DNA of 27,633 nucleotides from a virus, in IMG/VR virus record IMGVR_UViG_3300030107_000194, positions 1-27,633 of that record; one strand, 5' to 3'. Below are positions 5,906 through 21,625 of this stretch, one piece after another (position 1 is the stretch's first letter; the number at the start of each line of letters is the position of its first letter). The translations under genes were made by a program, and so were the position numbers. The notes beneath the pieces were generated by a model. The model worked only from the letters and a program-made list of their open reading frames with translations. It was not told the DNA's origin and made no database searches.

Positions 5906-7207
5906 TTAATAACCATAATTCTTAAATGACTTTATACCTTTATTGCTAGCCATTCCACCTTGATTTTTAAATAATAAAGGATTTGTTCCTACTATTCCAC
6001 CTTGTGCAAACTGATACATATTTGCAGTTCCATAAGGATTGCCTATAAATTTCTTTGTAACTGGATCATAATAACCACCAGCAATTTGCATTTGCTCAGG
6101 CCCACCTAAATAATTAGGTGTAAATCCCGGCATGTATTGTCTTTTTAAAAGAAAGTCTGGTGTTGGAACAGTTGTGTCTGTTGCAGGTGGAGTAGGAGTG
6201 CTTGTTTGAAAATCACCTATACCACCACCACTTTGTTGTGTATTACCTGTAAAAGGATTTTTACCTTGTCTGCTTAATTCTTCACGAGCAGCAAATATTT
6301 TATTAGCAAAATCTCCAGAGAATTGACTTGCATCTAAGCTAGCTAAATCTACTAAACCTCCAGTAGTTTGTGGTACATTTTTTGGATCAGAATAATATTT
6401 TTCTGGATTTGCTATTTTATCGTAATAACTTTGAAACTTATCTGCATCTAATCCTTTACCTTGTGTCATAAATCTATCAGCAAGTGCTTGAGGATCACCA
6501 GCTTTAATTAAATCCATTAGTTTAGCATTGTCAGTTGGTGAAAGACCACCTGCATAATCCATTATACGATCAAGATTACCTTTTCTGTTTAAGAAATCCT
6601 CAAATTCTTTTTTATCCATATCACCAAACATCTTAGCAAAAGTTGCTGCTGTTCTTGGATCATCTGAACCAAATGATTTTTCTGGTCTAAAACCTGTAAA
6701 CTTATCTAATGCACCACCAAGTTTATCAATCATTGCAAAAGCTGGAACAACAGATCCAGTTGTGTCTACAAAGAAAATTTTACCATTTTTAATAATTGCT
6801 TTTTGACCTATTTTTTTTTCTAATAAAAATAAATCTCTTTCAGAAAGTTGACCAAGTTCATCATCATAATATTTAACCTGTTCTTTTTTGTCTTCTTTTG
6901 GTGGTTTGTCATCTTTTGGTGGTGTAGTAAATGTTGTATCTACTACATTTCCTTGTGCATCTAATTTTTCTCTTCTAGATATATTATCTTGACCAGTTGT
7001 AACAATAGTTCCACCTGCTCCCGGTGCAACGTAATTAGGATTTGCTTGACTTATTTTTAATCTGTCTTTTGCTGGTGTATAACCTGCACCCATATATCCA
7101 CTTGCTGCTGCTGATGAATATGCAGATGTGTTTGGTTTTGGTTTTGGTTTTGGTTTAACAGGAGAGTAATTAAAACCTCCCGGTGAATGTCCTGCAACGT
7201 GTGGCAT
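5906..7207 (-). CDS. Glycine-rich 433-aa protein, probable virion-associated
   Basis: Starts at ATG 7207 with an excellent AAGGAGG placed inside the end of the preceding HNH gene (TAATG overlap). The N terminus is low complexity with a KPKPKPKP run (residues about 17-26) and G/A/S/T stretches. Residues about 115-330 are a helical region with regular L/F positions (D-K-K-E-F-E-D-F-L-N-R, F-A-N-K-I-F-A-A-R-E-E-L). The C-terminal 40 residues carry two short motifs, F-A-Q-G-G-I-V-G and N-Q-G-G-M-A-S, which recur in the 646-aa and 158-aa proteins of the structural block. That shared motif suggests a virion or assembly protein although the gene is far downstream, next to lysis genes. No enzyme motif is visible. 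Confidence 0.65.
   Translation of the reverse strand: MPHVAGHSPGGFNYSPVKPKPKPKPNTSAYSSAAASGYMGAGYTPAKDRLKISQANPNYVAPGAGGTIVTTGQDNISRREKLDAQGNVVDTTFTTPPKDDKPPKEDKKEQVKYYDDELGQLSERDLFLLEKKIGQKAIIKNGKIFFVDTTGSVVPAFAMIDKLGGALDKFTGFRPEKSFGSDDPRTAATFAKMFGDMDKKEFEDFLNRKGNLDRIMDYAGGLSPTDNAKLMDLIKAGDPQALADRFMTQGKGLDADKFQSYYDKIANPEKYYSDPKNVPQTTGGLVDLASLDASQFSGDFANKIFAAREELSRQGKNPFTGNTQQSGGGIGDFQTSTPTPPATDTTVPTPDFLLKRQYMPGFTPNYLGGPEQMQIAGGYYDPVTKKFIGNPYGTANMYQFAQGGIVGTNPLLFKNQGGMASNKGIKSFKNYGY
7131..7157 (-). repeat. Six-base tandem repeat encoding Pro-Lys
   Basis: About four copies of a TTGGTT/TTTGGT-type hexamer (read on the - strand AAACCA/CCAAAA) encode K-P-K-P-K-P-K-P in the 433-aa protein. It is a likely slippage-prone spacer that varies in copy number between relatives. 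Confidence 0.8.
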
Positions 7208-9612: not shown

Positions 9613-12600
9613 CTATCCTAATATTCTGTCTGCTCTTTTTATAAAACGTTGAATAATTAAAGACTCTCTATCTAAAAGTTTTTTAATTTTATCTTTTTTC
9701 TGATCTTCTGTTAATCTTTTACTGTCTTCAATAAATTTAATTTGTTGTCTTATTTTTCTTCTTTGTGATTCAACTGATTTAATAGCTGGTCGAAGACGTA
9801 ATAAACTACCTCTTTCTTTTTTTAAATTTGCAAGAGCCTCTTTATTACCTTCTTCTCTATGATATTCCATAAGATTTTCAGCAATCTTAATTTCATCTCT
9901 AATATCAAAGTATGCTTGTTTATCAACAAATGTTGGCTGAGATTTGTATACTCTACGAGTAAAAGGCACTTGGTTAGGGCCTATTTCATCCCATTGACCT
10001 GTAAGAATATTTTTTCCTAACTCAGTAGTTCTTCCAGTAAAACTTCCTAGTCCACCAAATAAATGACCAAACCAAAAGTCCATAGTTTCTGGAGAGAAAT
10101 CTATAAATCCTTTTTCCATTTTACTACCACCAGTTAAACTGTTAAGTGTGTTAGCTGTTACTTGAGAAATACTTGAGGCATTCCAAAATCTTTGACTATC
10201 TGGTGGGCCTGCATTACCATCAAAAGGATTATCTGGTGGATAAATAGAACGACCAGCATAATCTTCATTTTGCATTAATTGTACAGCAGGTTTTAAAACT
10301 GTAGGTGAAACAAATTCAACTACACTAGAAGAACCTCCAATAGGATTGAAAGCATTAAACATAGAACCAACAGTTCTTGAAGCATTATCTCCTACAGAAA
10401 TTTGTTGTTTACTAGATCCACCCATATCTTCTGGCATTGATGATGCCATAGTTTGACCTAATACAGCCATAACATTGTATCCATATGGCATAGGAATAGC
10501 TATATACTTTTCAGTGCCGGGTAAAAACAAAATAAGATTGTGAGATTTAACCCATCCACTTAACTTATCGTATCTGTTTCTTCCATCTTCATCTTCACCA
10601 GCCGCCATTCTATTCAACATATCTAATGCAAATGAACCAGCAGTAATAGTATAAAGCATTTTTCTTATCTTAGGACTTCTAAATGAAGCCTGTAATACAC
10701 GAACACTACCTTGAATAGATGCATTATAGAATAGGTACATAGAGTTAATTAATCCACCCCATTCACCTTTTCTGTTAAAGTTAACAGTTAAGTTTTTAGC
10801 AAGACTTGCAGCTTGAGTTTGTGTTAATCCAGCATCTAATGCTGATTGAAAAGCTGATACACGAACAGCGTTCTCAACTGCTGCGTTAACATCTGATACA
10901 TACTTACCTACACTTTTAACAAAGTTAGATCCTTTTTTAAGTGATGCACTTGATTTTTTTTCTGTATTAAGACCACCAAGTTGTGCTTGTATTTCATCTA
11001 ATTGATTTTCTAATGTTTTAATAGATGTAAAGAAACCTACTTTACCACCAGCATTTTTATAATTTCTGTATATTGTTTCCCATTCACCTTGTGAATCTGC
11101 TTTTCTTTCAACGTTATACGCACCTTTTAATGCTTTCTTCCAGTTTTTAAACATACTATTTCTTAATTGAACAGTTTGTTCATCAGAAATATTAATTGCG
11201 GCAGTTTGTAAATCTCTTAATAAGTTTGCAACAACGAACTCTGGGTTATACCCTGTGTTAATCATTGCAAGATATCGTGTTACTCTACCTAATGCATTAG
11301 TAAACATGTTGCCAGATTGAGCACCTATGTTATTAAAGAAACGAGCAAGGTACTCATTCTCTAAAAGCATAACTTTTTTTTTGCCATCTATAATAAACTC
11401 AAATGGTTCACCTAAATTTTTAGCTTTCCATTTACCTTTAAGTCTACCTTTTTCTTTTCTAAATTCTTCTTTTAATTTTGTAAACTCTTCTATAGTTTTT
11501 GCTTGCTCTGGTTTAGTTGGATCTTCCATAATAGTCCAAAGACCATCAGTATTAGGATCAACTTCAGATTCATAATATTTAGCAAAGTCATATAATGATT
11601 TACCAACTCTATTTCTCTCTGCTCTTACAATATCATTGTGTAGTTGAATCATTGCTTGAGCAAAAGTATTTCTTGCTTCTCTTATATTTTCTGGAAGTAT
11701 TCCTCTGCCTCTACCTAGTTTAACTTCTCTACCTTCTTTTTTAACTTGAAAACCCGGTGGTTTAGTTACTTTTAATTTTTTTTCTGTTCTTTTAATTGGA
11801 ACGCCAAGTTTCCAATTAATTTCTTCAGCGTCTATTTCAAAATCAATACCACGCAAAGGAACATAATTTTCAAATTGATTAAGTAATTGATCTCTTATTT
11901 CTTTTGATATTATACCACCATCAAATTTTGTTTCTAAATTAGAACGCATCATTTCACTAACTTGTTTGCTAATGTCTTCTAATATTTTAAAATTATCTTG
12001 TTTTTTAAAATCAGCTAAAATAATGTCAGCTTGTTCATCAGTCATACCAGAACCCATAGCAGCTTCTTCTTCTGTTACTTTTTCAAAACCTTCTTCATTT
12101 TTTTTCTTTTTTTCTACATAAGATGCATTACGTTCTTTAGCATGTTTTGCATACAAATAAAGATCAAGATCACCTATAGGAATATTATTTTTTTCCAAAG
12201 TATCTATAATAGGTTCTACTTTAAGAGTTTGTAACTCTGCTAATCTTTCACCAGTTCTTCCATGAAATAATTCTTCAGCAACATAAGGATCTATTAAACC
12301 ATATTTTTTTTGTAATTCTGGGTCTGTAAGTTTCATACCCAGTTTTCTTTCTACAGCGTCTAGTATTCTACGAGTTCCATATCCTTTATCTTGCATTCCC
12401 ATTCTTAATTCAATAGCAGAGTTTGCTATCCAACCACCTAATTTAGGATATTTTTTTCTTAACTTATCTAACTTGGAAACGTATGTCTTGTCTATTCTAG
12501 CTAAACCAGATTTCACTCTGTCATCCATAATAACATCAGACATACTTACGATGCCTTCATCGTTATTATTACCCATTAAACTTTCAGTGCTATATAATGC

Positions 12601-15600
12601 TCCTGTCTCTGGAACAATATCTACTACTGTTTCTTTTCCTTCTGCTTCTAGATTAGCATCAGGCCCTTTAATGTAGTCATCAACTACTTTTGTTTCTTGG
12701 GTTTTTCCTTCTTCTGTTTGTTCTTCTCTTGTAACTTCTGTTCGTTCAATTCTGTTTCCAACTTCAACGCTTGGGCTAGAACTTTCAGACTCGATTTCTC
12801 CATACTTGTTCTCCTTAAAATTATTTATATACTTTTTTGCACCATCTGACAATGTGTATAATTTAGCTGCTTGCTTAACAGTATCAGCATACAATTCATG
12901 TTCATAATACCATAATGCAGCTTGTGCATCATTTGGTGTTAAACCTACCTTTTTAGCTAATGCTACAGCAAATTCATCTGCTCTTTTTTCATGTTTCTTT
13001 AACATTCCACCTTTTAATCCATCTCTGGATGAAGGAGTATTATCTGTTAATTGACCAAATAATCTGTAGAAACTTCTTGAAAACCATACATCTTTAGTAA
13101 CGCCTTCTGCTTCTGCATTATCTTTAATGCCTTTAATATCTAAATAAAATCTTCCTACTTTAGGGCCGAAGATAAATGTACCAAGAACATTGGTATCTAA
13201 TCCTTTGCCTGTGCCTAAAGAAGGTTTAGCGTTAGCTTTGTAGTTGTCATTAATTACGTTACCATATTCTGCTTTACCAGAATCACGTTGTACTTGAGCA
13301 AGTTCTCTTATTGTTTTTTCACTTTTAACAAAATCAACTGTGCCTCTTACACCTAATGTATCTAACATGTATTGTAATAAAGTTAATTGTTTTGATACAC
13401 CCGGCATACTCCAAAACTTATTAGTAGTTGGATTTTTAATTGGTAATACACCATGTTTATTGTAATAATAATAAATTCTAGAAGCTATTTCTACATTCTC
13501 TCTTGGATTTCTATTAACTGATGTAATAGCTGTCATAAGTCCAAACAAATCTTTATCATGTGGATTTGTTTCTAATGTAGGAAGAGCCTCACTTAATAAA
13601 TCAAATGTATCTTTTGCATCTTTTGAATACCAACCAATACCATTAAGAACTTGATTTTTTTGATACTCAATTTCTTTAGCCGCTGAATCTACAGCTTCGT
13701 TAAAAGCCTTATCATCCATAGGATCAGTAGGTTGAGTCATGTCATCAAAATACTTACCTAAATCTCTTGTTAATTTAAGTTTTTCTTTAGGTGGATTTTT
13801 TCTAACTGAAACTGTATCTACAGAAAACTTAGCTCGTAATATAGGTCGTTTACCTTCTATTGCTCTTCTTGCATCTTCTTGTTCTTTTTGTTCTGTAATT
13901 TCTTCTTGAGTAGCACCTTCTATTTGTTTATCTTTTAAAACTTTATCTGCTTTTGCTTTTGATCTTTCTGCAACTTCATCTTTTTCTATGTCTGCTTTTT
14001 TTACTTGTTGTTCCTCTTTTGTTCTTGGGAAAGAACCTTCACTAATAGCCCTGTAAAGAGATTTACGATTAACTCGTCTACCACTAAATTCTTTATGTAT
14101 GTCTGCATCTTGACCAGTTAATACTTCTCCACTACCAATAGTAATAGAGTCACCTGTGTTTGGATCTGTAATATCAAATTTATGCCCATGTCTTACAGCA
14201 ACAGCCGCATTAACCATAGGGTCTAACATTTCTCTTACAGTATCTTCATTAACTTGTTCTGGTTTTTCAGATATAATTTTATTTCTAAAGTTAACAATTT
14301 CATTGTATGCAGGTTGCATATCAGCAGAACGTTTAACTCTTTCTGTTTCTGTTTCTGGAACTTTACCTTTTTTAGTTTCAACAATTATGTCAGCAGCATT
14401 ATTAAGAATACTCATTGCCTCTTGAGAAGGTCTAAATCCAAGTGGTCTAAATATAGGATTGTTAGAATTTATAGTTCCTCTAACATTACTTTTTGGATAA
14501 ACAGTTGTAGGAGCAACAGAATATTGTGCTTCTGGTGGAGTAATAACTCTTTCACCTACATCTGGTGCATCAAGTAATTTTCTATCTTTAGCTTTTTCAA
14601 AATCAACATCAGTTCTTGTTGGTACATCTTTAGCAACCTCAAGTTCTTCTGCTCGTTGTTGACCAAAAGCCCTTGCTTCTTCTTCTGTTCTAAAATCAAA
14701 TCCTCTTCTGCCAACTTTACCTTCACCAGCTAATTTAAATACAGATTCAAAAGTGTTGTATCCTTTACCTTGTACAAATCTTTTTGTTTTAGTAAGTATT
14801 TCACCAATCTTATTAAAAGCACGTTGAATAATATTACCTACTGGAGGTCTCTTATTAAATGCTCTTTGTGTATTCCACGCTTGAAATACATAGGCTTGCA
14901 TTTCTACAGCTTCTAAATCTCTATCTCCATACTTTTTAGTAAGATAATCTATTGCTTTTGTTCCAAGAGTATCTTGAACCCATTGTGGCATATCTTTTAT
15001 TTTGCCACCAGCAAAAGCCTCATCTAGTGCTTTTTGTTCTTTTTCAGTAAAGACACCTTTCTTTTTTAAATTACCCATTGTGCGTTGTAATGCATGAAAA
15101 GATTCATGAGAAAGTAACTCAAATATTTTTGGTGTTGGATTGCCTTTAGCATCCAGCATACCTTCTAATTCTTGCAAAGAAAGATAAATAGTATCACCAG
15201 CTTGGTCATACCAACCTTGTATATTACCAACTGTTTCTTCACTTGTTTTAAAACCTAAAGAACCTTCTGGTGCTACAATTCTATCTGTAGCAAATAAAAC
15301 ATTTGTTGTAGGTGATATTTTATTTATAATATCATTAACAAATATTGCCATTGATCCTAATTCTGGACTTCTCTCAACAAGTTCTTTACTATTAATAACA
15401 GGCTCACCAGCGTATATATCTACTTCAACATTATTTTGTTTTTGTAAATATCGTAAACGAGCAGAAGCCACATTTTCTTCTTCATGTATACTATCTACTT
15501 TTTCTTGTACAACTCTGTCAGTTCCTTTTTCTTTAAGAACTTTAATAACTTCAAATTTTTCAGTAGGATCATCTCGAACATACTGTTTACCATCAATAAC

Positions 15601-17733
15601 TTCTGTTTCTTTTTCTAATACAGGTTTTAATTCAAAACCAACATCAAAAGCATCTTTTTCTTCTACTATGTTTTCTCTTACTTGTGATTCTATATCAGCT
15701 TTTATTTCTGTTCCACCAATAACACCAAGTTCATTTAACTCTCTGTTAGTAGTATAAATTTGGTCTTTATTAGTTTTTCTTCTATCTTTTAAAAGTTTAC
15801 GTTGTTTAGGTGTAAGATTAGCAATAAATCTTGCATCTTTTGGAACTACGCCAGCTTCTTTTAATTCTTTTAAATCAGTAAAGTTAAACTTTTCTGGATC
15901 TTTTCTAAAATTTTTTCTATTTCTATATTCAAATAATAGTCTTCTTTGTTTAGGTGTTAAATCAGTAAGATTAATTGCACCAGCAGTAAATGTTTCTTTA
16001 CCTGTTTTTTTATCTTTAACAACTTTAGCTGCTTTTAGTTCAGCTTCTGTTAAATCTGCTAGTTCTTCTGTGCCTCTTTGACCTTCCCATTTATCAACCC
16101 ATTGTTGTTTATCTGAATCCCATGCAAAACCTTCTGCTGGTTTTTCTGGTATAAGAACGTCTTCTTTAGTTAATTCTGGACTTCCTTTACCATCAATATA
16201 TGATTGTGCTTGTTCTTTAGTTTTAAAAGCAAGTGAGTCTTCTCCACCTCTTTTATTATCTCTAACAACAAAACCTTTACCATCTATAAATTGTTCTGTT
16301 TTAACTTCGTCTACTTCAAAACGTGGTTGACCTATTTGAGGGCCTTTAGGTTTAAGTTTAACTTTTCTTGTTACCTGTTCAAATGTAGGTGCAGGTAATC
16401 CTCTTTTCTTAAAGTATTCTTTTTGAAAAGTTTTATAATATTCTTTTGCTTGTGTTTCACCTTGATTATCTACAATAGTTTGTATTTTTTCATTAAGAAA
16501 TTTATCTACTGTTTCTCCACTTATAAAATCAAATGATTTTTCACTATCTACTTTAGCTTCGTCTTGTACTGTTTTAATTTCTTCTTTAGAAATAGTTTCT
16601 TCTGTTCTTTCTGGAACAGTAGGTGTAGGAATATCTGTTTCTACCTCTTCAATAATTTCTTCACCTAAATTTACAGGAAGTTCAGATTGTTCTGTTCTTG
16701 ATGTTCTTTCAATATCTTCTAAAGTTTTTTTATTTTGAATATTAAGAGGGCCTGTAACACCACCAATAACACCACCTAAAACACCACCAACAAATCCAGC
16801 TTCTGCATATTCTTTCATTGCATCTTCTGAAGTTGCGTAATCTAATCCACCAGCTTGTGCTCTTTCTAAAAATTGTTGAAATACTTCTGTACCAGCTTCT
16901 GTAGGTACACCAATAACTCCACCTTTTAATATTTTTTTAGTAATACCTGCTTGAGGTGTAGTCATTTTTAATGCTCTAGGAAGTAAAGCATATATTACTG
17001 TATCTGCTGCTGCTTGTGCTGGAGCAGTCATTAATGCTTGAAATTCATTAATGTCTACTTTTTCACCTGCTCTTACAGATTGATCTTGTCGTAAAATGTT
17101 TCTACCAAAAAATGATGGAGCAAGTGCAATAGTACCACCAATAATCATACCAGCAGTTCCACCAATAACTGTACCAATTGGGCCTAAAGTAGTTCCTACA
17201 GCGGCTCCAATTTTTCCACCAGCATAAGTACCAGCAATACCTTGTGCCATTTCTGGTGCAGATAATCCAAAGTTTTGTAATAAGTGACCAGTTAAACCAC
17301 CAATACCTTCTGCTTCGTATGCTTGTTTAGAACTTTGATAACCCGGCACTATTTGTGCTTGGGCTAGTTCTGCCTCTCTTGCTTTTTGTAAATAATATTC
17401 TTGATCTTCTTCATCACCTATTAAACCTTGAGTACCAGCAAGTATACCATATCCAGTAGATTTTAATCCAGCTATACCTTTTTTTAAACCACCAACTAAG
17501 TCTTCACCCATTGTTGTAGTTTGGTCTTCTGGATAATTAACTAAATCTACACGTTTACCAAATCGTTCTGTTTCTAAAGACTCTGGATCTATAGTAAAGT
17601 AATCTCTAAATTCATCGTAATTTGGAAATTCTTCTTTATAGAATTTATCATATAAATTTCTTGCTAAAGTGTAATCACTATACTGTGCAAGTTCTGGATA
17701 TTTTTGTTTATATAACTCAATAGGAGCAACCAT
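9613..17733 (-). CDS. 2706-aa polyvalent internal virion/ejection protein with zincin protease and LPD38-like domains
   Basis: The largest gene in the window, ATG 17733 behind AAGGAT. Visible layout: an N-terminal helical domain (1-100), glycine/alanine-rich hydrophobic stretches (about 145-215 and 311-331) resembling membrane-inserting parts of ejection proteins, E/K/T-rich linkers, and a tandem LTPKQR repeat (592-600 and 640-648). A zincin metallopeptidase follows with HESFH at 876-880 and likely third ligand E941 or E944. After a long mixed region (1300-1690) and a charged domain comes an LPD38-like region (about 2145-2450), then a basic coiled coil to the end. It is the last and largest of a 354-646-2706 series like T7 gp14-15-16. 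It would be packaged in the head and injected with DNA, the peptidase acting on envelope or host proteins. No transglycosylase motif is seen. Domain names rest on resemblance, not on a search. Confidence 0.85.
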   Translation of the reverse strand: MVAPIELYKQKYPELAQYSDYTLARNLYDKFYKEEFPNYDEFRDYFTIDPESLETERFGKRVDLVNYPEDQTTTMGEDLVGGLKKGIAGLKSTGYGILAGTQGLIGDEEDQEYYLQKAREAELAQAQIVPGYQSSKQAYEAEGIGGLTGHLLQNFGLSAPEMAQGIAGTYAGGKIGAAVGTTLGPIGTVIGGTAGMIIGGTIALAPSFFGRNILRQDQSVRAGEKVDINEFQALMTAPAQAAADTVIYALLPRALKMTTPQAGITKKILKGGVIGVPTEAGTEVFQQFLERAQAGGLDYATSEDAMKEYAEAGFVGGVLGGVIGGVTGPLNIQNKKTLEDIERTSRTEQSELPVNLGEEIIEEVETDIPTPTVPERTEETISKEEIKTVQDEAKVDSEKSFDFISGETVDKFLNEKIQTIVDNQGETQAKEYYKTFQKEYFKKRGLPAPTFEQVTRKVKLKPKGPQIGQPRFEVDEVKTEQFIDGKGFVVRDNKRGGEDSLAFKTKEQAQSYIDGKGSPELTKEDVLIPEKPAEGFAWDSDKQQWVDKWEGQRGTEELADLTEAELKAAKVVKDKKTGKETFTAGAINLTDLTPKQRRLLFEYRNRKNFRKDPEKFNFTDLKELKEAGVVPKDARFIANLTPKQRKLLKDRRKTNKDQIYTTNRELNELGVIGGTEIKADIESQVRENIVEEKDAFDVGFELKPVLEKETEVIDGKQYVRDDPTEKFEVIKVLKEKGTDRVVQEKVDSIHEEENVASARLRYLQKQNNVEVDIYAGEPVINSKELVERSPELGSMAIFVNDIINKISPTTNVLFATDRIVAPEGSLGFKTSEETVGNIQGWYDQAGDTIYLSLQELEGMLDAKGNPTPKIFELLSHESFHALQRTMGNLKKKGVFTEKEQKALDEAFAGGKIKDMPQWVQDTLGTKAIDYLTKKYGDRDLEAVEMQAYVFQAWNTQRAFNKRPPVGNIIQRAFNKIGEILTKTKRFVQGKGYNTFESVFKLAGEGKVGRRGFDFRTEEEARAFGQQRAEELEVAKDVPTRTDVDFEKAKDRKLLDAPDVGERVITPPEAQYSVAPTTVYPKSNVRGTINSNNPIFRPLGFRPSQEAMSILNNAADIIVETKKGKVPETETERVKRSADMQPAYNEIVNFRNKIISEKPEQVNEDTVREMLDPMVNAAVAVRHGHKFDITDPNTGDSITIGSGEVLTGQDADIHKEFSGRRVNRKSLYRAISEGSFPRTKEEQQVKKADIEKDEVAERSKAKADKVLKDKQIEGATQEEITEQKEQEDARRAIEGKRPILRAKFSVDTVSVRKNPPKEKLKLTRDLGKYFDDMTQPTDPMDDKAFNEAVDSAAKEIEYQKNQVLNGIGWYSKDAKDTFDLLSEALPTLETNPHDKDLFGLMTAITSVNRNPRENVEIASRIYYYYNKHGVLPIKNPTTNKFWSMPGVSKQLTLLQYMLDTLGVRGTVDFVKSEKTIRELAQVQRDSGKAEYGNVINDNYKANAKPSLGTGKGLDTNVLGTFIFGPKVGRFYLDIKGIKDNAEAEGVTKDVWFSRSFYRLFGQLTDNTPSSRDGLKGGMLKKHEKRADEFAVALAKKVGLTPNDAQAALWYYEHELYADTVKQAAKLYTLSDGAKKYINNFKENKYGEIESESSSPSVEVGNRIERTEVTREEQTEEGKTQETKVVDDYIKGPDANLEAEGKETVVDIVPETGALYSTESLMGNNNDEGIVSMSDVIMDDRVKSGLARIDKTYVSKLDKLRKKYPKLGGWIANSAIELRMGMQDKGYGTRRILDAVERKLGMKLTDPELQKKYGLIDPYVAEELFHGRTGERLAELQTLKVEPIIDTLEKNNIPIGDLDLYLYAKHAKERNASYVEKKKKNEEGFEKVTEEEAAMGSGMTDEQADIILADFKKQDNFKILEDISKQVSEMMRSNLETKFDGGIISKEIRDQLLNQFENYVPLRGIDFEIDAEEINWKLGVPIKRTEKKLKVTKPPGFQVKKEGREVKLGRGRGILPENIREARNTFAQAMIQLHNDIVRAERNRVGKSLYDFAKYYESEVDPNTDGLWTIMEDPTKPEQAKTIEEFTKLKEEFRKEKGRLKGKWKAKNLGEPFEFIIDGKKKVMLLENEYLARFFNNIGAQSGNMFTNALGRVTRYLAMINTGYNPEFVVANLLRDLQTAAINISDEQTVQLRNSMFKNWKKALKGAYNVERKADSQGEWETIYRNYKNAGGKVGFFTSIKTLENQLDEIQAQLGGLNTEKKSSASLKKGSNFVKSVGKYVSDVNAAVENAVRVSAFQSALDAGLTQTQAASLAKNLTVNFNRKGEWGGLINSMYLFYNASIQGSVRVLQASFRSPKIRKMLYTITAGSFALDMLNRMAAGEDEDGRNRYDKLSGWVKSHNLILFLPGTEKYIAIPMPYGYNVMAVLGQTMASSMPEDMGGSSKQQISVGDNASRTVGSMFNAFNPIGGSSSVVEFVSPTVLKPAVQLMQNEDYAGRSIYPPDNPFDGNAGPPDSQRFWNASSISQVTANTLNSLTGGSKMEKGFIDFSPETMDFWFGHLFGGLGSFTGRTTELGKNILTGQWDEIGPNQVPFTRRVYKSQPTFVDKQAYFDIRDEIKIAENLMEYHREEGNKEALANLKKERGSLLRLRPAIKSVESQRRKIRQQIKFIEDSKRLTEDQKKDKIKKLLDRESLIIQRFIKRADRILG
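15700..15969 (-). repeat. Tandem protein repeat in the polyvalent protein
   Basis: Two copies of a unit with 48-residue period: L-T-P-K-Q-R-R-L-L (592-600) and L-T-P-K-Q-R-K-L-L (640-648). Each is followed by a basic R/K/N stretch and then a helix of the type L-K-E-L-K-E-A-G-V-V or N-R-E-L-N-E-L-G-V-I. The K/R content suggests a DNA- or peptidoglycan-contacting helical repeat. Confidence 0.7.
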
Positions 17734-17743
17734 TTATTTATCC

Positions 17744-19684
17744 TTATTGTATTTTTTCTATATTATCTAAATCTATATCTTTACTTTCATCGGTAAGAAT
17801 ATCACTCATATCTTTTACTGCTTCTAATTTTTCAAAGAAAGCCTCTGGGTTTTCTTCGTATTCTTCAAACCAATATGGATTAGATTTCATGTAAGCCTGT
17901 AAAAGTTTAGTTGAATTTTTATCAGTAGCTAAACCAAGTTCTTGTATATGATATCCATCTTTATCTCTGTAAATTTGAACTTTCATATCTTTGCCACCAA
18001 TTTCAAGGTCAACAACAGATCCTGTTTCAAATCCTGCTGCTTCTGCTTGTGCATTGTTTTTAACAATTTGAGAAGTAATTAATTTACTATTTAAAAGATT
18101 TCCTGTTTCAGTTTTATACCAATCTAATTCAAGTTTTCTTTCATCTAAACTCATTCCTTGTAATTTTGCTTCATGATCAGCTTTAAATTTAAGTAAATCT
18201 TGTGACAATCTATTTGCTTCCATATCCATAGTTGCAGCTAAATTTTCATATTTAAATTTCAAATCATCTGCACTTATATCTCCTTGCTGTGCCATTTTTG
18301 CATATTCTAATGAGAATTGTTGATATGATTTCATAGCATCAGACGCTATATCATACTCTAATCGTTGTTGATTTTGGGTTAATTGATCTTTACTTAATTT
18401 AATTCTTTCTTCATCAAAGATCAGACCAGCTTTCTTTAAAGCCATTTCTTGTTCGTACTTTTCATCTTCACGTTTTTCTTTTTGTATTCTAGCGTATTCT
18501 TCTAAACCTTTAATACCACCTTCACCTAAAGCACCTAACATATCTGGATTATTAGAAGCAGCCATTTGTAGACCAGCCATCATTAGTGGCATAGCCCAAG
18601 CTGGTGCTTCCTTACCTTTATCTTTTTTATCTGGATTTAATGCTTTTGCAATTTTATCTGAAAGACTTACATCATCTTCTGTTAATTGACTTGAATCTTT
18701 ATTTGACATACCTTGAAATGTTGACATCCAATCTTCTGGTGTCATATCAAACATATTCTTTGGTTGACCATCAACACTTACAATATTAGTTTCAGTTGTT
18801 TTTTTGTTTTTATTCTTTTTGTTTTCTTGTATTTTATCGTCTATTATATCTAAAGTTTCTGATTGTTTAGTATCTTTTTTAGTTAAGTCTGGTTTTTCAA
18901 TTTGACCAAGTTCTCTTTCTATTTCAGTGTCTTTTCTTTTTTGTTTTATTTTATTAATTTCTTCTTGTGTTAGACCTGTAATACCATCATCTCCAAATCG
19001 AGAAGAACCTTCTCCACCAGTGTATTGTGGCATTTCTTCTTTTTCTACTGGTTTTTCTTTAGACATAAATTTACCTTCTATGTCACCTTCTTGTTCTTCT
19101 AATGCAGTAGGAGCACCTGTTAATTGTTCTATTGATGCTTTTTTATCTGGCACAGCTTTTAAAGACTCACCCTTTTTGCCTGTAACAGCTTTTTCTACAT
19201 CAAATGTTTCTATTTGATCACTGTAATCTGTAAAAGCATCTGCAACATCTGATACAGGAATTTTAAGCATATTAGCTATTCTTTGATAATCATTGTTTCT
19301 ATTTTTTTTTGCTTGACCTATACGATATGAATTTCCACCATAAAGATCATTTATTTGTTGTATAACATCAAGTCTACGTTGATTTCCTTTTGCACGAAAA
19401 TCTCCTGCTCTTACACCTACATTTTGTTCACCAGCAGCACCAGCAATAGATGGACTATAATAAGCTGATACAGTTCCACCCGGTGCATACCTTTGTGCTC
19501 TATTTAAAAAACCACCAGTGACTTTCATACCAGTAGGATTACCACCAGATATACCTCTAACCATTCCACCATATCTATATCCAACAGGATTTAAAGCAAA
19601 AAAGTTATTGAGTATTTCTGTATTAGGTAAAGTTGTTTTATAATTTCCTAAGTCTGCGTATAATCCACCTTTAAATTTTTTCAT
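17744..19684 (-). CDS. 646-aa probable internal virion protein (gp15-like position)
   Basis: ATG 19684 overlaps the stop of the 354-aa gene as TAATG. The N-terminal 70 residues hold two glycine motifs (R-Y-G-G-M-V-R-G and Y-A-P-G-G-T-V) also found in other structural proteins here. Residues about 170-320 are a charged, disordered K/E/D/T region. A short hydrophobic patch (W-A-M-P-L-M-M-A-G-L-Q-M-A) leads to a long coiled coil (about 395-540: R-I-Q-K-E-K-R-E-D-E-K-Y and repeated heptads), and a small C-terminal domain ends acidic. This build is typical of the middle ejection protein of podovirus-like marine phages. Position between the S74-tailed protein and the giant polyvalent protein supports that. 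No enzymatic motif is seen. Confidence 0.72.
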   Translation of the reverse strand: MKKFKGGLYADLGNYKTTLPNTEILNNFFALNPVGYRYGGMVRGISGGNPTGMKVTGGFLNRAQRYAPGGTVSAYYSPSIAGAAGEQNVGVRAGDFRAKGNQRRLDVIQQINDLYGGNSYRIGQAKKNRNNDYQRIANMLKIPVSDVADAFTDYSDQIETFDVEKAVTGKKGESLKAVPDKKASIEQLTGAPTALEEQEGDIEGKFMSKEKPVEKEEMPQYTGGEGSSRFGDDGITGLTQEEINKIKQKRKDTEIERELGQIEKPDLTKKDTKQSETLDIIDDKIQENKKNKNKKTTETNIVSVDGQPKNMFDMTPEDWMSTFQGMSNKDSSQLTEDDVSLSDKIAKALNPDKKDKGKEAPAWAMPLMMAGLQMAASNNPDMLGALGEGGIKGLEEYARIQKEKREDEKYEQEMALKKAGLIFDEERIKLSKDQLTQNQQRLEYDIASDAMKSYQQFSLEYAKMAQQGDISADDLKFKYENLAATMDMEANRLSQDLLKFKADHEAKLQGMSLDERKLELDWYKTETGNLLNSKLITSQIVKNNAQAEAAGFETGSVVDLEIGGKDMKVQIYRDKDGYHIQELGLATDKNSTKLLQAYMKSNPYWFEEYEENPEAFFEKLEAVKDMSDILTDESKDIDLDNIEKIQ

Positions 19685-20748: not shown

Positions 20749-21174
20749 TTAATTGTACCTCCATATATTTCCCATTTCTTTAAAACCCATCCTCTTATAT
20801 AGTGAGGCTGTATTTTTTCCTGTACTTACAGGTATTTGTATTGTCATGTTGTTTGAATATTTAATTAATTCTTGTAGTAATTTTCTTGCTGTTTTGTAGT
20901 CTCTATGCTCTGGAAGAACATAAAACCACGTTTCTGAAACAAATTGTTCGTCTGAAAACCACCACGAACTCTTCATTGCTCCTATACTGCCTACTAACTT
21001 ATTGTCTTTGTAAGCATTCTTAATAAATCCTTTTTTATAATGATCTTCTATTTCTAATCCAACTTTTCTTATACTAACAGTTGGATAAATATCATTAAAC
21101 TCTTTTTTAAATTTTAAAAGTAGATGTAATAAATCTATAAAATCATCTTTAGCTACGTCTCTTATTTCTAGCAC
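20749..21174 (-). CDS. GNAT-family acetyltransferase-like protein in the ejection cassette
   Basis: 141 aa, GTG start at 21174 behind GAGA, overlapping the previous gene by 26 bases. The GNAT fold is visible: N-terminal R-D-V-A-K-D-D-F-I-D-L-L helix, strand pair N-K-L-V-G-S-I-G-A-M, then W-F-Y-V-L-P-E-H-R-D-Y-K-T-A-R-K-L-L as a degenerate acetyl-CoA motif A (Q/RxxGxA is R-D-Y-K-T-A), and N-T-A-S-L-Y-K-R-M-G-F-K-E-M-G at the end. The length and place, directly upstream of the three large internal proteins, recall T7 gene 13 (138 aa). The missing glycine in motif A raises the possibility of a structural GNAT without activity. Substrate unknown. Confidence 0.82.
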   Translation of the reverse strand: MLEIRDVAKDDFIDLLHLLLKFKKEFNDIYPTVSIRKVGLEIEDHYKKGFIKNAYKDNKLVGSIGAMKSSWWFSDEQFVSETWFYVLPEHRDYKTARKLLQELIKYSNNMTIQIPVSTGKNTASLYKRMGFKEMGNIWRYN

Positions 21175-21625
21175 TATTCTCTGCTTTCTCCATCATTGCA
21201 TAAAGTTTTTGTGCTCCTTGTTTTCTACTTCCTCCACCAAAGCCTTTTACGGCATCTGCTGTCATTACAAATTCACCATCAGATAACATTGCTGGTATTG
21301 AATCAGATGTTCCTGTTCCCGGCCCACTAACACCACCACCAGCAGTAAAGTCTCGTATTGATGCTATGCCACCTTTAGCTTTTTTATCTCTGTAAGAACT
21401 TTCTACCTCATCAACAAATTTCATTAATTCTTCTTGATAACTTGTTCCATTTTGATCTGCTTTTTGTTGTATAAATCTAATTAAGTTTGGATCATCATAA
21501 TAGAACTCACCTTGACCAAATGTTTTACCTTCATCTTCTGGTTTCATTACTGGTCTAGATTCTGCTTCTTTTCTTTGTTGAAAAAAGTTTTTTATATTTC
21601 CTATTATATCTGATATTCCTGCCAT
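21149..21625 (-). CDS. 158-aa protein with tape-measure-like C-terminal signature
   Basis: ATG 21625 is preceded by GGAGATGA. The N-terminal 90 residues are charged helix (N-I-K-N-F-F-Q-Q-R-K-E-A-E-S-R, F-I-Q-Q-K-A-D). From about residue 87 the sequence runs K-G-G-I-A-S, then G-G-G-V-S-G-P-G-T-G-T-S-D-S-I-P-A and L-S-D-G-E-F-V-M-T-A-D-A-V-K-G-F-G. That S-D-S-I-P-A-x-L-S-D-G-E-F-V motif is well known from ends of tail tape-measure and other virion proteins of many phages, though its molecular role is not clear to me. A 158-aa carrier is far too short to be a tape measure, so this is likely an assembly or ejection-related factor. Confidence 0.75.
   Translation of the reverse strand: MAGISDIIGNIKNFFQQRKEAESRPVMKPEDEGKTFGQGEFYYDDPNLIRFIQQKADQNGTSYQEELMKFVDEVESSYRDKKAKGGIASIRDFTAGGGVSGPGTGTSDSIPAMLSDGEFVMTADAVKGFGGGSRKQGAQKLYAMMEKAENSARNKRRS

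Follow-up and report, generated by a model that had tools for sequence, protein, structure and literature searches.

The stretch of viral DNA analysed here (27,633 nucleotides, hereafter the window, corresponding to positions 1 to 27,633 of IMG/VR record IMGVR_UViG_3300030107_000194, which is 35,898 bases long) encodes on its minus strand a giant polyvalent protein, P0001. Three short sequences of the form A-x-[YF]-S-[VT] lie in the linkers of this protein, ahead of its modules, and a string with the same [FY]-S core is, as judged from sequence statistics, more frequent across its relatives than chance allows. The protein, its parts and the three motifs are located as follows.

9613..17733, minus strand: giant polyvalent protein P0001, 2706 amino acids (aa), a single open frame
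15094..15108, minus strand: HESFH, aa 876-880, putative zinc site
14554..15426, minus strand: zincin-like block, aa ~770-1060, with HESFH and a downstream E
14512..14529, minus strand: motif 1, AQYSVA, aa 1069-1074, at the C-terminal border of the zincin block
13834..14511, minus strand: module A, aa 1075-1300, function unknown; replaced in relative L001, kept in L168 (58% identity)
13816..13833, minus strand: motif 2, AKFSVD, aa 1301-1306, an identity island between two replaced modules
12601..13815, minus strand: module B, aa 1307-1711, function unknown; 77% identity in L169, missing in L168
12583..12600, minus strand: motif 3, ALYSTE, aa 1712-1717, preceding the conserved C-terminal module
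9616..12399, minus strand: conserved C-terminal module, aa 1779-2706, defined by relatives and PHROGs
9961..10578, minus strand: LPD38 domain (Pfam), aa 2386-2591

LPD38 is the sole Pfam match in the giant (E 6.6e-35, 121.4 bits against a cut-off of 27), and the C-terminal ~920 aa are covered by PHROGs 14770, 616 and 10691, of unknown function. The zincin-like block carries both an HExxH sequence, HESFH, and a downstream glutamate that is invariant in four aligned sequences; it has no Pfam profile match, and its low-confidence predicted fold has no match in the PDB. The giant has the two characters of a polyvalent protein, namely large size together with a defined LPD domain (LPD38) and several unrelated, exchangeable domains, since in L001 and L168 modules A and B are either exchanged or missing, and different modules are likewise found in L171-L174. 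No MuF or MuF_C match was obtained in the window protein with Pfam, which does not place it among the MuF-type proteins; MuF_C is present in the relatives L133 and L024.

The first-pass annotation of this DNA had described AQYSVA, AKFSVD and ALYSTE as standing at the ends of charged linkers, just before apparent new domains. Their positions proved exact, and the description holds, all three falling in stretches where the predicted local distance difference test (pLDDT) is below 50. The block means are 27 for motif 1, 28 for motif 2 (25 according to the other model) and 24 for motif 3; the zincin core blocks reach 86. Thus, the motifs were not seen inside folded domains and would sit in floppy linkers, although this is a weak test, taking into account that the two AlphaFold2 runs (seven sequences each) gave poor models overall, with mean confidences of 58 and 48. 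Fold searches with both models returned no match under E 0.001.

The pattern A-x-[YF]-S-[VT] occurs three times in the giant against 0.084 expected, and none of 5000 composition shuffles reaches three, a figure to be read knowing that the pattern was formulated after the sites were known. Enrichment inside the window protein alone was rejected as an argument, since bare [YF]S is without excess there, and the case therefore depends on relatives. These retain only part of the motif as first proposed: the [FY]-S core stands (sometimes as L-S or [FL]-A), followed by V, I, L or T in the window clade and by R or K in most proteobacterial relatives; the leading alanine was discarded, its place being taken by A, P, I, E, R, G or other residues. 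A fourth A-x-Y-S, AQYSDY, is found in the N-terminal region (aa 16-21), outside the set.

The nearest relative, L001 (2231 aa, partial), is 87% identical to the window giant over the C-terminal module and 83% over the zincin. At each of the three motif positions it has [YF]S (DAQYSV, PKFSV and VLFSTE), and the stretches between motifs 1 and 2 and between motifs 2 and 3 are almost unrelated in the two proteins, identity ending at motif 1 and resuming about 25 aa upstream of motif 3. A more distant relative, L168 (45-48% identity to the window), which has module A and lacks module B, reads KFSVSSLFSS ahead of its C-terminal module. At the zincin end, the linker carries [FYL]-S-[VIL] in seven of eight proteins (the window giant, L001, L169 and L171-L174), with YSV, FSL, YSI, YSI, LSL and LSL in the relatives and ASV in L168.

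In the sister group retrieved by zincin search (L171-L174 and L176), the giants repeat E-[FLY]-S-[VI]-S. L172 has a related string at several places along its chain (EYSI, ELSV, ELSV, ELSV, EFSV, ELSV), and [FYL]S[VI][SD] occurs four times both in L172 and in L174, against 0.21 and 0.22 expected (0 of 1000 shuffles each); L171 and L168 have one each, without excess. L172 differs from L171, to which it is otherwise 83-84% identical, by about 515 extra residues, and copies of the string lie near this extra stretch. The Pfam domains of L172-L174 (YunG, a weak methyltransferase match, and gp82-like) fall between string copies without overlapping them. The extra residues of L172 include YunG-like and methyltransferase-like parts.

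A wider sample was obtained by searching with the C-terminal module, keeping the best 80 of 568 relatives in viral contigs and the best 80 of 206 in genome contigs. It comprised 166 open reading frames (ORFs), 153 of them with more than 200 residues before the module and 120 left after removal of similar sequences. In the variable part of these 120 giants FSR is found 88 times where 27.6 would be expected, which ranks it third among tripeptides relative to composition, after PAP and TPE, which are typical of proline-rich linkers; within the C-terminal module [FY]S is below expectation (324 vs 395). FSR is at borders in a fraction of 0.60 of its occurrences, compared with 0.37 for all positions, and 13.5% of its occurrences are enclosed by two borders, against 2.4%. 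Among 337 dipeptides ranked by border position FS is 60th, the proline-rich ones coming first. The statement in the first-pass annotation that similar Y/F-S motifs precede effector domains in other polyvalent proteins is borne out, with FSR and YSR as examples.

The density of [FY]S[RKLVIT] peaks 41-80 aa before the C-terminal module, at 10.0 per 1000 positions, compared with 0.5-4.4 in the other upstream bins shown. Blind expectation-maximisation in this linker yields [DG]-[IP]-[RLK]-[FY]-S-R, part of the signal coming from ART-PolyVal domains, whose conserved tail is NPDIRFSR. After 16 ART-tailed linkers and 44 similar ones had been dropped, 60 mutually dissimilar linkers remained; their best motif is still [FY]-S-[RK] (log-likelihood 109.6, at most 72.2 in eight shuffled sets), and 29 of them contain [FY]S[RKLVIT], where 10.8 would be expected; in L005 and L068 the string listed (GFSIP) is the start of the module itself. 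Serine at the sites is encoded by both codon families (18 AGY, 17 TCN), which points to selection on the protein and not on the DNA. In another group of giants (L066, L072, L082, L083, L102, L107 and L131), H[IVL]PDRxx[WF] stands before the C-terminal module instead.

ART-PolyVal is a mobile domain present in many proteins, and the residues that follow its tail were classified. The first set, from viral contigs and earlier loci, consisted of at least 132 ORFs reduced to 85 nonredundant proteins, ORFs below 400 aa being omitted here and in the second set; the classes and masks were tuned on it and frozen for a hold-out, retrieved with a second pattern, of at least 93 further ORFs reduced to 58 nonredundant proteins dissimilar from the first set. 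The tail is followed by R[FY]S (S class), by TK[AS]xGG and similar words (GG), by ILxQ (Q), by [FY]MP (MP) or by others; thus, after NPDI, L183-L302 and L314-L423 read TKADGG or NEARGG, NILFQG or SILNQ, and [FY]MP. Strings of each class were then counted elsewhere in the same proteins with the ART tails masked, all counts being among the matches listed.

In the 85 proteins, strings of the protein's own class exceed expectation in all four cases (S 33 vs 22.4, GG 13 vs 3.4, Q 24 vs 15.8, MP 6 vs 0.6), and none of 5000 label permutations reaches the observed sum. In the other classes such strings are near or below expectation, save for two exceptions in the GG class, [FY]S[RK] (10 vs 4.8) and [FY]MP (6 vs 1.2, all in one protein). 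In the hold-out, which contained no MP-class case, recurrence overall is matched by 97 of 5000 permutations; it is carried by the S class (as FS) and the GG class, both of which replicate (20 vs 10.9 and 7 vs 2.4, respectively). Over both sets, among the matches listed, xx[FY]SR is found elsewhere in 22 of 37 S-class proteins and in 26 of 106 others. On the ART tree, 43 class changes are counted against 45.9 in shuffled labels, with 40 of 82 branches poorly supported. The class thus tracks the rest of the protein and not the ART tree, so the junction would belong to the host protein rather than to the domain, and these comparisons support a motif behaving like a protein-specific junction mark. 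The comparison of terminal with internal ART domains had only four terminal cases and hence no power. In L094, aa 2700-3280 hold tandem ART-PolyVal domains (four phmmer segments) whose tails have F/Y-A-R-R in place of [FY]SR.

A cognate peptidase for each junction word is plausible, and some associations between word and peptidase were found. Zincins with STF[LI]HExxH accompany 8 of 15 Q-class proteins and 1 of 70 others in the first set (1 of 6 and 2 of 52 in the hold-out); this zincin sometimes follows directly after ART, and adjacency may explain part of the association. HExxGH zincins occur in 6 of 25 S-class proteins and 3 of 60 others in the first set. Over both sets, any HEx2-3H is present in 3 of 17 GG-class proteins and in 81 of 126 others, GG-class proteins being shorter. 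Among the wide giants, the motif is in the last linker of 24 of 37 proteins with HExxGHxG-type zincins and 4 of 23 with HExxHA-type ones (p 0.0005), in an exploratory comparison not corrected for phylogeny, and one in which marine HExxHA giants carry related strings (LSV, FSA, YSA) missed by the pattern. Independent pairs on the tree nearly all run in the same direction, and are too few (5-8). The mere presence of a zincin was rejected as a predictor, because HEx2-3H is found in 70 of 83 complete ORFs anyway.

The reading that we favour, and to which we would give an even chance, is that the [YF]-S motifs are processing sites in the inter-module linkers of a modular polyvalent protein. They would be short exposed junction elements between independently exchangeable modules, at which the giant would be cut into parts by a peptidase, either the HESFH zincin that it contains or one closely associated with it, while virions are assembled or once injection has taken place. 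In related giants the junctions would be spelled differently (KxxGG, ILxQ, [FY]MP), and a module entering a giant would adopt the local word, which is what one expects where the junctions have to be read by the giant's own peptidase. Computation gives the recurrence of the strings, their position before modules, the replacement of modules between them and the recurrence of the same class within a protein; from these we infer that the motifs are recognition sites.

Several observations weigh against processing sites. Within the giant, bare [YF]S[VT] is seen 3 times against 1.2 expected (599 of 5000 composition shuffles do as well) and [YF]S 8 times against 9.8. Conservation in homologues, one of the checks proposed at the outset, holds for [YF]S at all three motifs in L001 and is incomplete beyond it, as motif 1 is lost in L168 (the place reads IAASV) and the border at motif 2 is altered to [FL]-A-[LV]-S in the clade of L169 and L171-L174. 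Enrichment at domain borders, another such check, came out for FSR across the wide giants and failed for blastp borders in the window clade, where 11 of 47 borders are near a motif against 8.9 expected and 258 of 1000 shifts score as high; blastp segment ends are imprecise in linkers, and the negative result stands. In alignments, positional conservation is modest (0.38 for the serine, 0.26 for the flank), and the motif is not significantly depleted inside Pfam domains (7 of 85 against 11.5 expected, p 0.096). The Q class failed the hold-out (4 vs 4.7 expected), as did the association between S-class proteins and HExxGH zincins (1 of 12), and the presence of HExxH is without effect on motif excess (238 observed for 159 expected with it, 149 for 96.5 without). 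Linkage to a particular peptidase thus replicates poorly and is suggestive only. The literature searched, as far as its available portions go, yielded no cleavage data for the giants compared here, and two characterised giants disagree with the simple expectation. N4 virion RNA polymerase (vRNAP), reported to be packaged unprocessed, has 8 [FY]S[RKLVIT] strings against 4.6 expected, so strings alone do not imply processing; P1 DdrB, reported to be processed to ~700 aa, is without such a motif near residue 700. Both were consequently rejected as benchmarks, neither fitting the simple reading.

Much of the evidence for a processing site would also be expected if the motifs were docking or packaging tags, to which a protein of the head, portal or scaffold binds while the module is retained or ejected uncut, because such tags too would be exposed in linkers, present once per module and written in phage-specific words. 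Packaging signals of internal head proteins are indeed known, and in P1 DarB the N-terminal 30 residues are sufficient (PMC9024508, as far as the available part of that paper goes); that signal, however, is a single N-terminal stretch and not many internal ones, and the covariation with zincins, weak as it is, is not predicted by docking. We regard docking as unlikely, though it is the alternative to be taken most seriously.

Somewhat less probable still is that the strings are functionless relics of recombination, either inherited module tails or short DNA homologies used for module exchange. Both forms have something in their favour, since NPDIRFSR belongs to the conserved ART tail, and at motif 2, between replaced modules, a short DNA sequence, CTAAGTT[TC]TCTGTAG, is common to the window and L001. 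Inherited tails would not account for a motif that persists once ART tails and similar linkers have been removed, nor for a junction class that is independent of the ART tree and agrees with the remainder of the host protein, and DNA homology does not agree with the use of both serine codon families. It is very improbable that the motif serves a structural role, capping or breaking the chain as a short strand or turn that closes one module and opens the next. Some [FY]S strings before the C-terminal module are the module's own start, e.g., GFSLPDE, which suits a cap; the three window sites, by contrast, are among the lowest-pLDDT stretches of the models (a weak point, the models being poor), and the neighbouring folds are wholly different in the window giant and L001. 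A processing site is thus favoured over both a docking tag and a recombination relic.

If the [YF]-S motifs are processing sites, giants made as single chains of ~300 kDa or more would be delivered as separate sets of effectors, which would explain how a chain of 2700 residues is handled in the head or during passage through the portal. The words would locate module borders, pair a giant with its peptidase and allow the polyprotein proposal made in 2017 to be tested. A broader proposal, which we put forward tentatively and hold to be rather doubtful, is that phage-encoded polyvalent proteins are polyproteins in the true sense, their joints following a code in which each giant has one word and its own peptidase and incoming domains are converted to that word. 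The words of such a code, offered with the same reserve, would be [FY]S[RKVLI], K[AS]xGG, ILxQ or [FY]MP, and, if the code is real, they could split many unannotated giants into functional parts.

Elsewhere in the giant, aa 158-201 (17131-17262, minus strand) are hydrophobic and rich in glycine, with a match below threshold to a tape measure protein (9ki1, E 0.086) and a match to a PHROG annotated as tail lysin (E 0.0028); this stretch may cross a membrane as part of an ejected protein. Strings of the type xGG[IMT], namely FAQGGIVG, KNQGGMAS, RYGGMVRG and KAKGGIAS, occur in further ORFs on the minus strand of the window (5909-7207, 17747-19684 and 21152-21625) and are similar to the GG junction word; GG totals 10 against 5.0 expected in the ORF at 5909-7207 and 9 against 4.0 in that at 17747-19684. 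A search for LPD5 in 369 genomes gave three matches, too few to be of use.

Among known systems, the giant resembles the polyvalent proteins described by Iyer et al. in 2017 (PMC5512222) in being large and multidomain and in combining an LPD domain with a zincin-like block that contains HExxH. In the available portions of that paper, embedded zincins of polyvalent proteins are proposed to release domains, an analogy is drawn with RNA-virus polyproteins, and P1 DdrB is given as processed (~700 aa) and N4 vRNAP as packaged whole. N4 vRNAP (NC_008720; PMC12633501, of which part was available) is, like the window protein, a giant ejected protein with an HExxH block. JC1 gp69, a DarB-like LPD38 giant of Bcep22-like phages, shares its C-terminal module with the window giant and differs in its upstream domains; according to the available part of PMC9144972, it has been found in virions with 51 unique peptides. 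In BcepMigl, the relative of this protein (L007) reads GARFSV some 21 aa ahead of the module.

Internal head proteins are another example of virion proteins processed at assembly; they are cut by prohead proteases, whose sites have Glu before the cut, and the P1 major capsid protein is cut at E120/S121 by such an enzyme (PMC9024508, same portion). The window motifs differ from these sites, being A-x-[YF]-S, and none of the three has Glu directly before Ser, which leaves the head protease suggested in the first-pass annotation without the feature of the T4 and P1 type. The open-licence literature, represented mostly by titles and the openings of abstracts, gave no junction or site motif for polyvalent giants, and the available excerpts of PMC5512222 name no cleavage sequence or junction motif. 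Thus, the release of parts from a polyprotein was already proposed in 2017, and what appears to be added here, from sequence comparison, is a recurrent [FY]S junction together with its alternative words.

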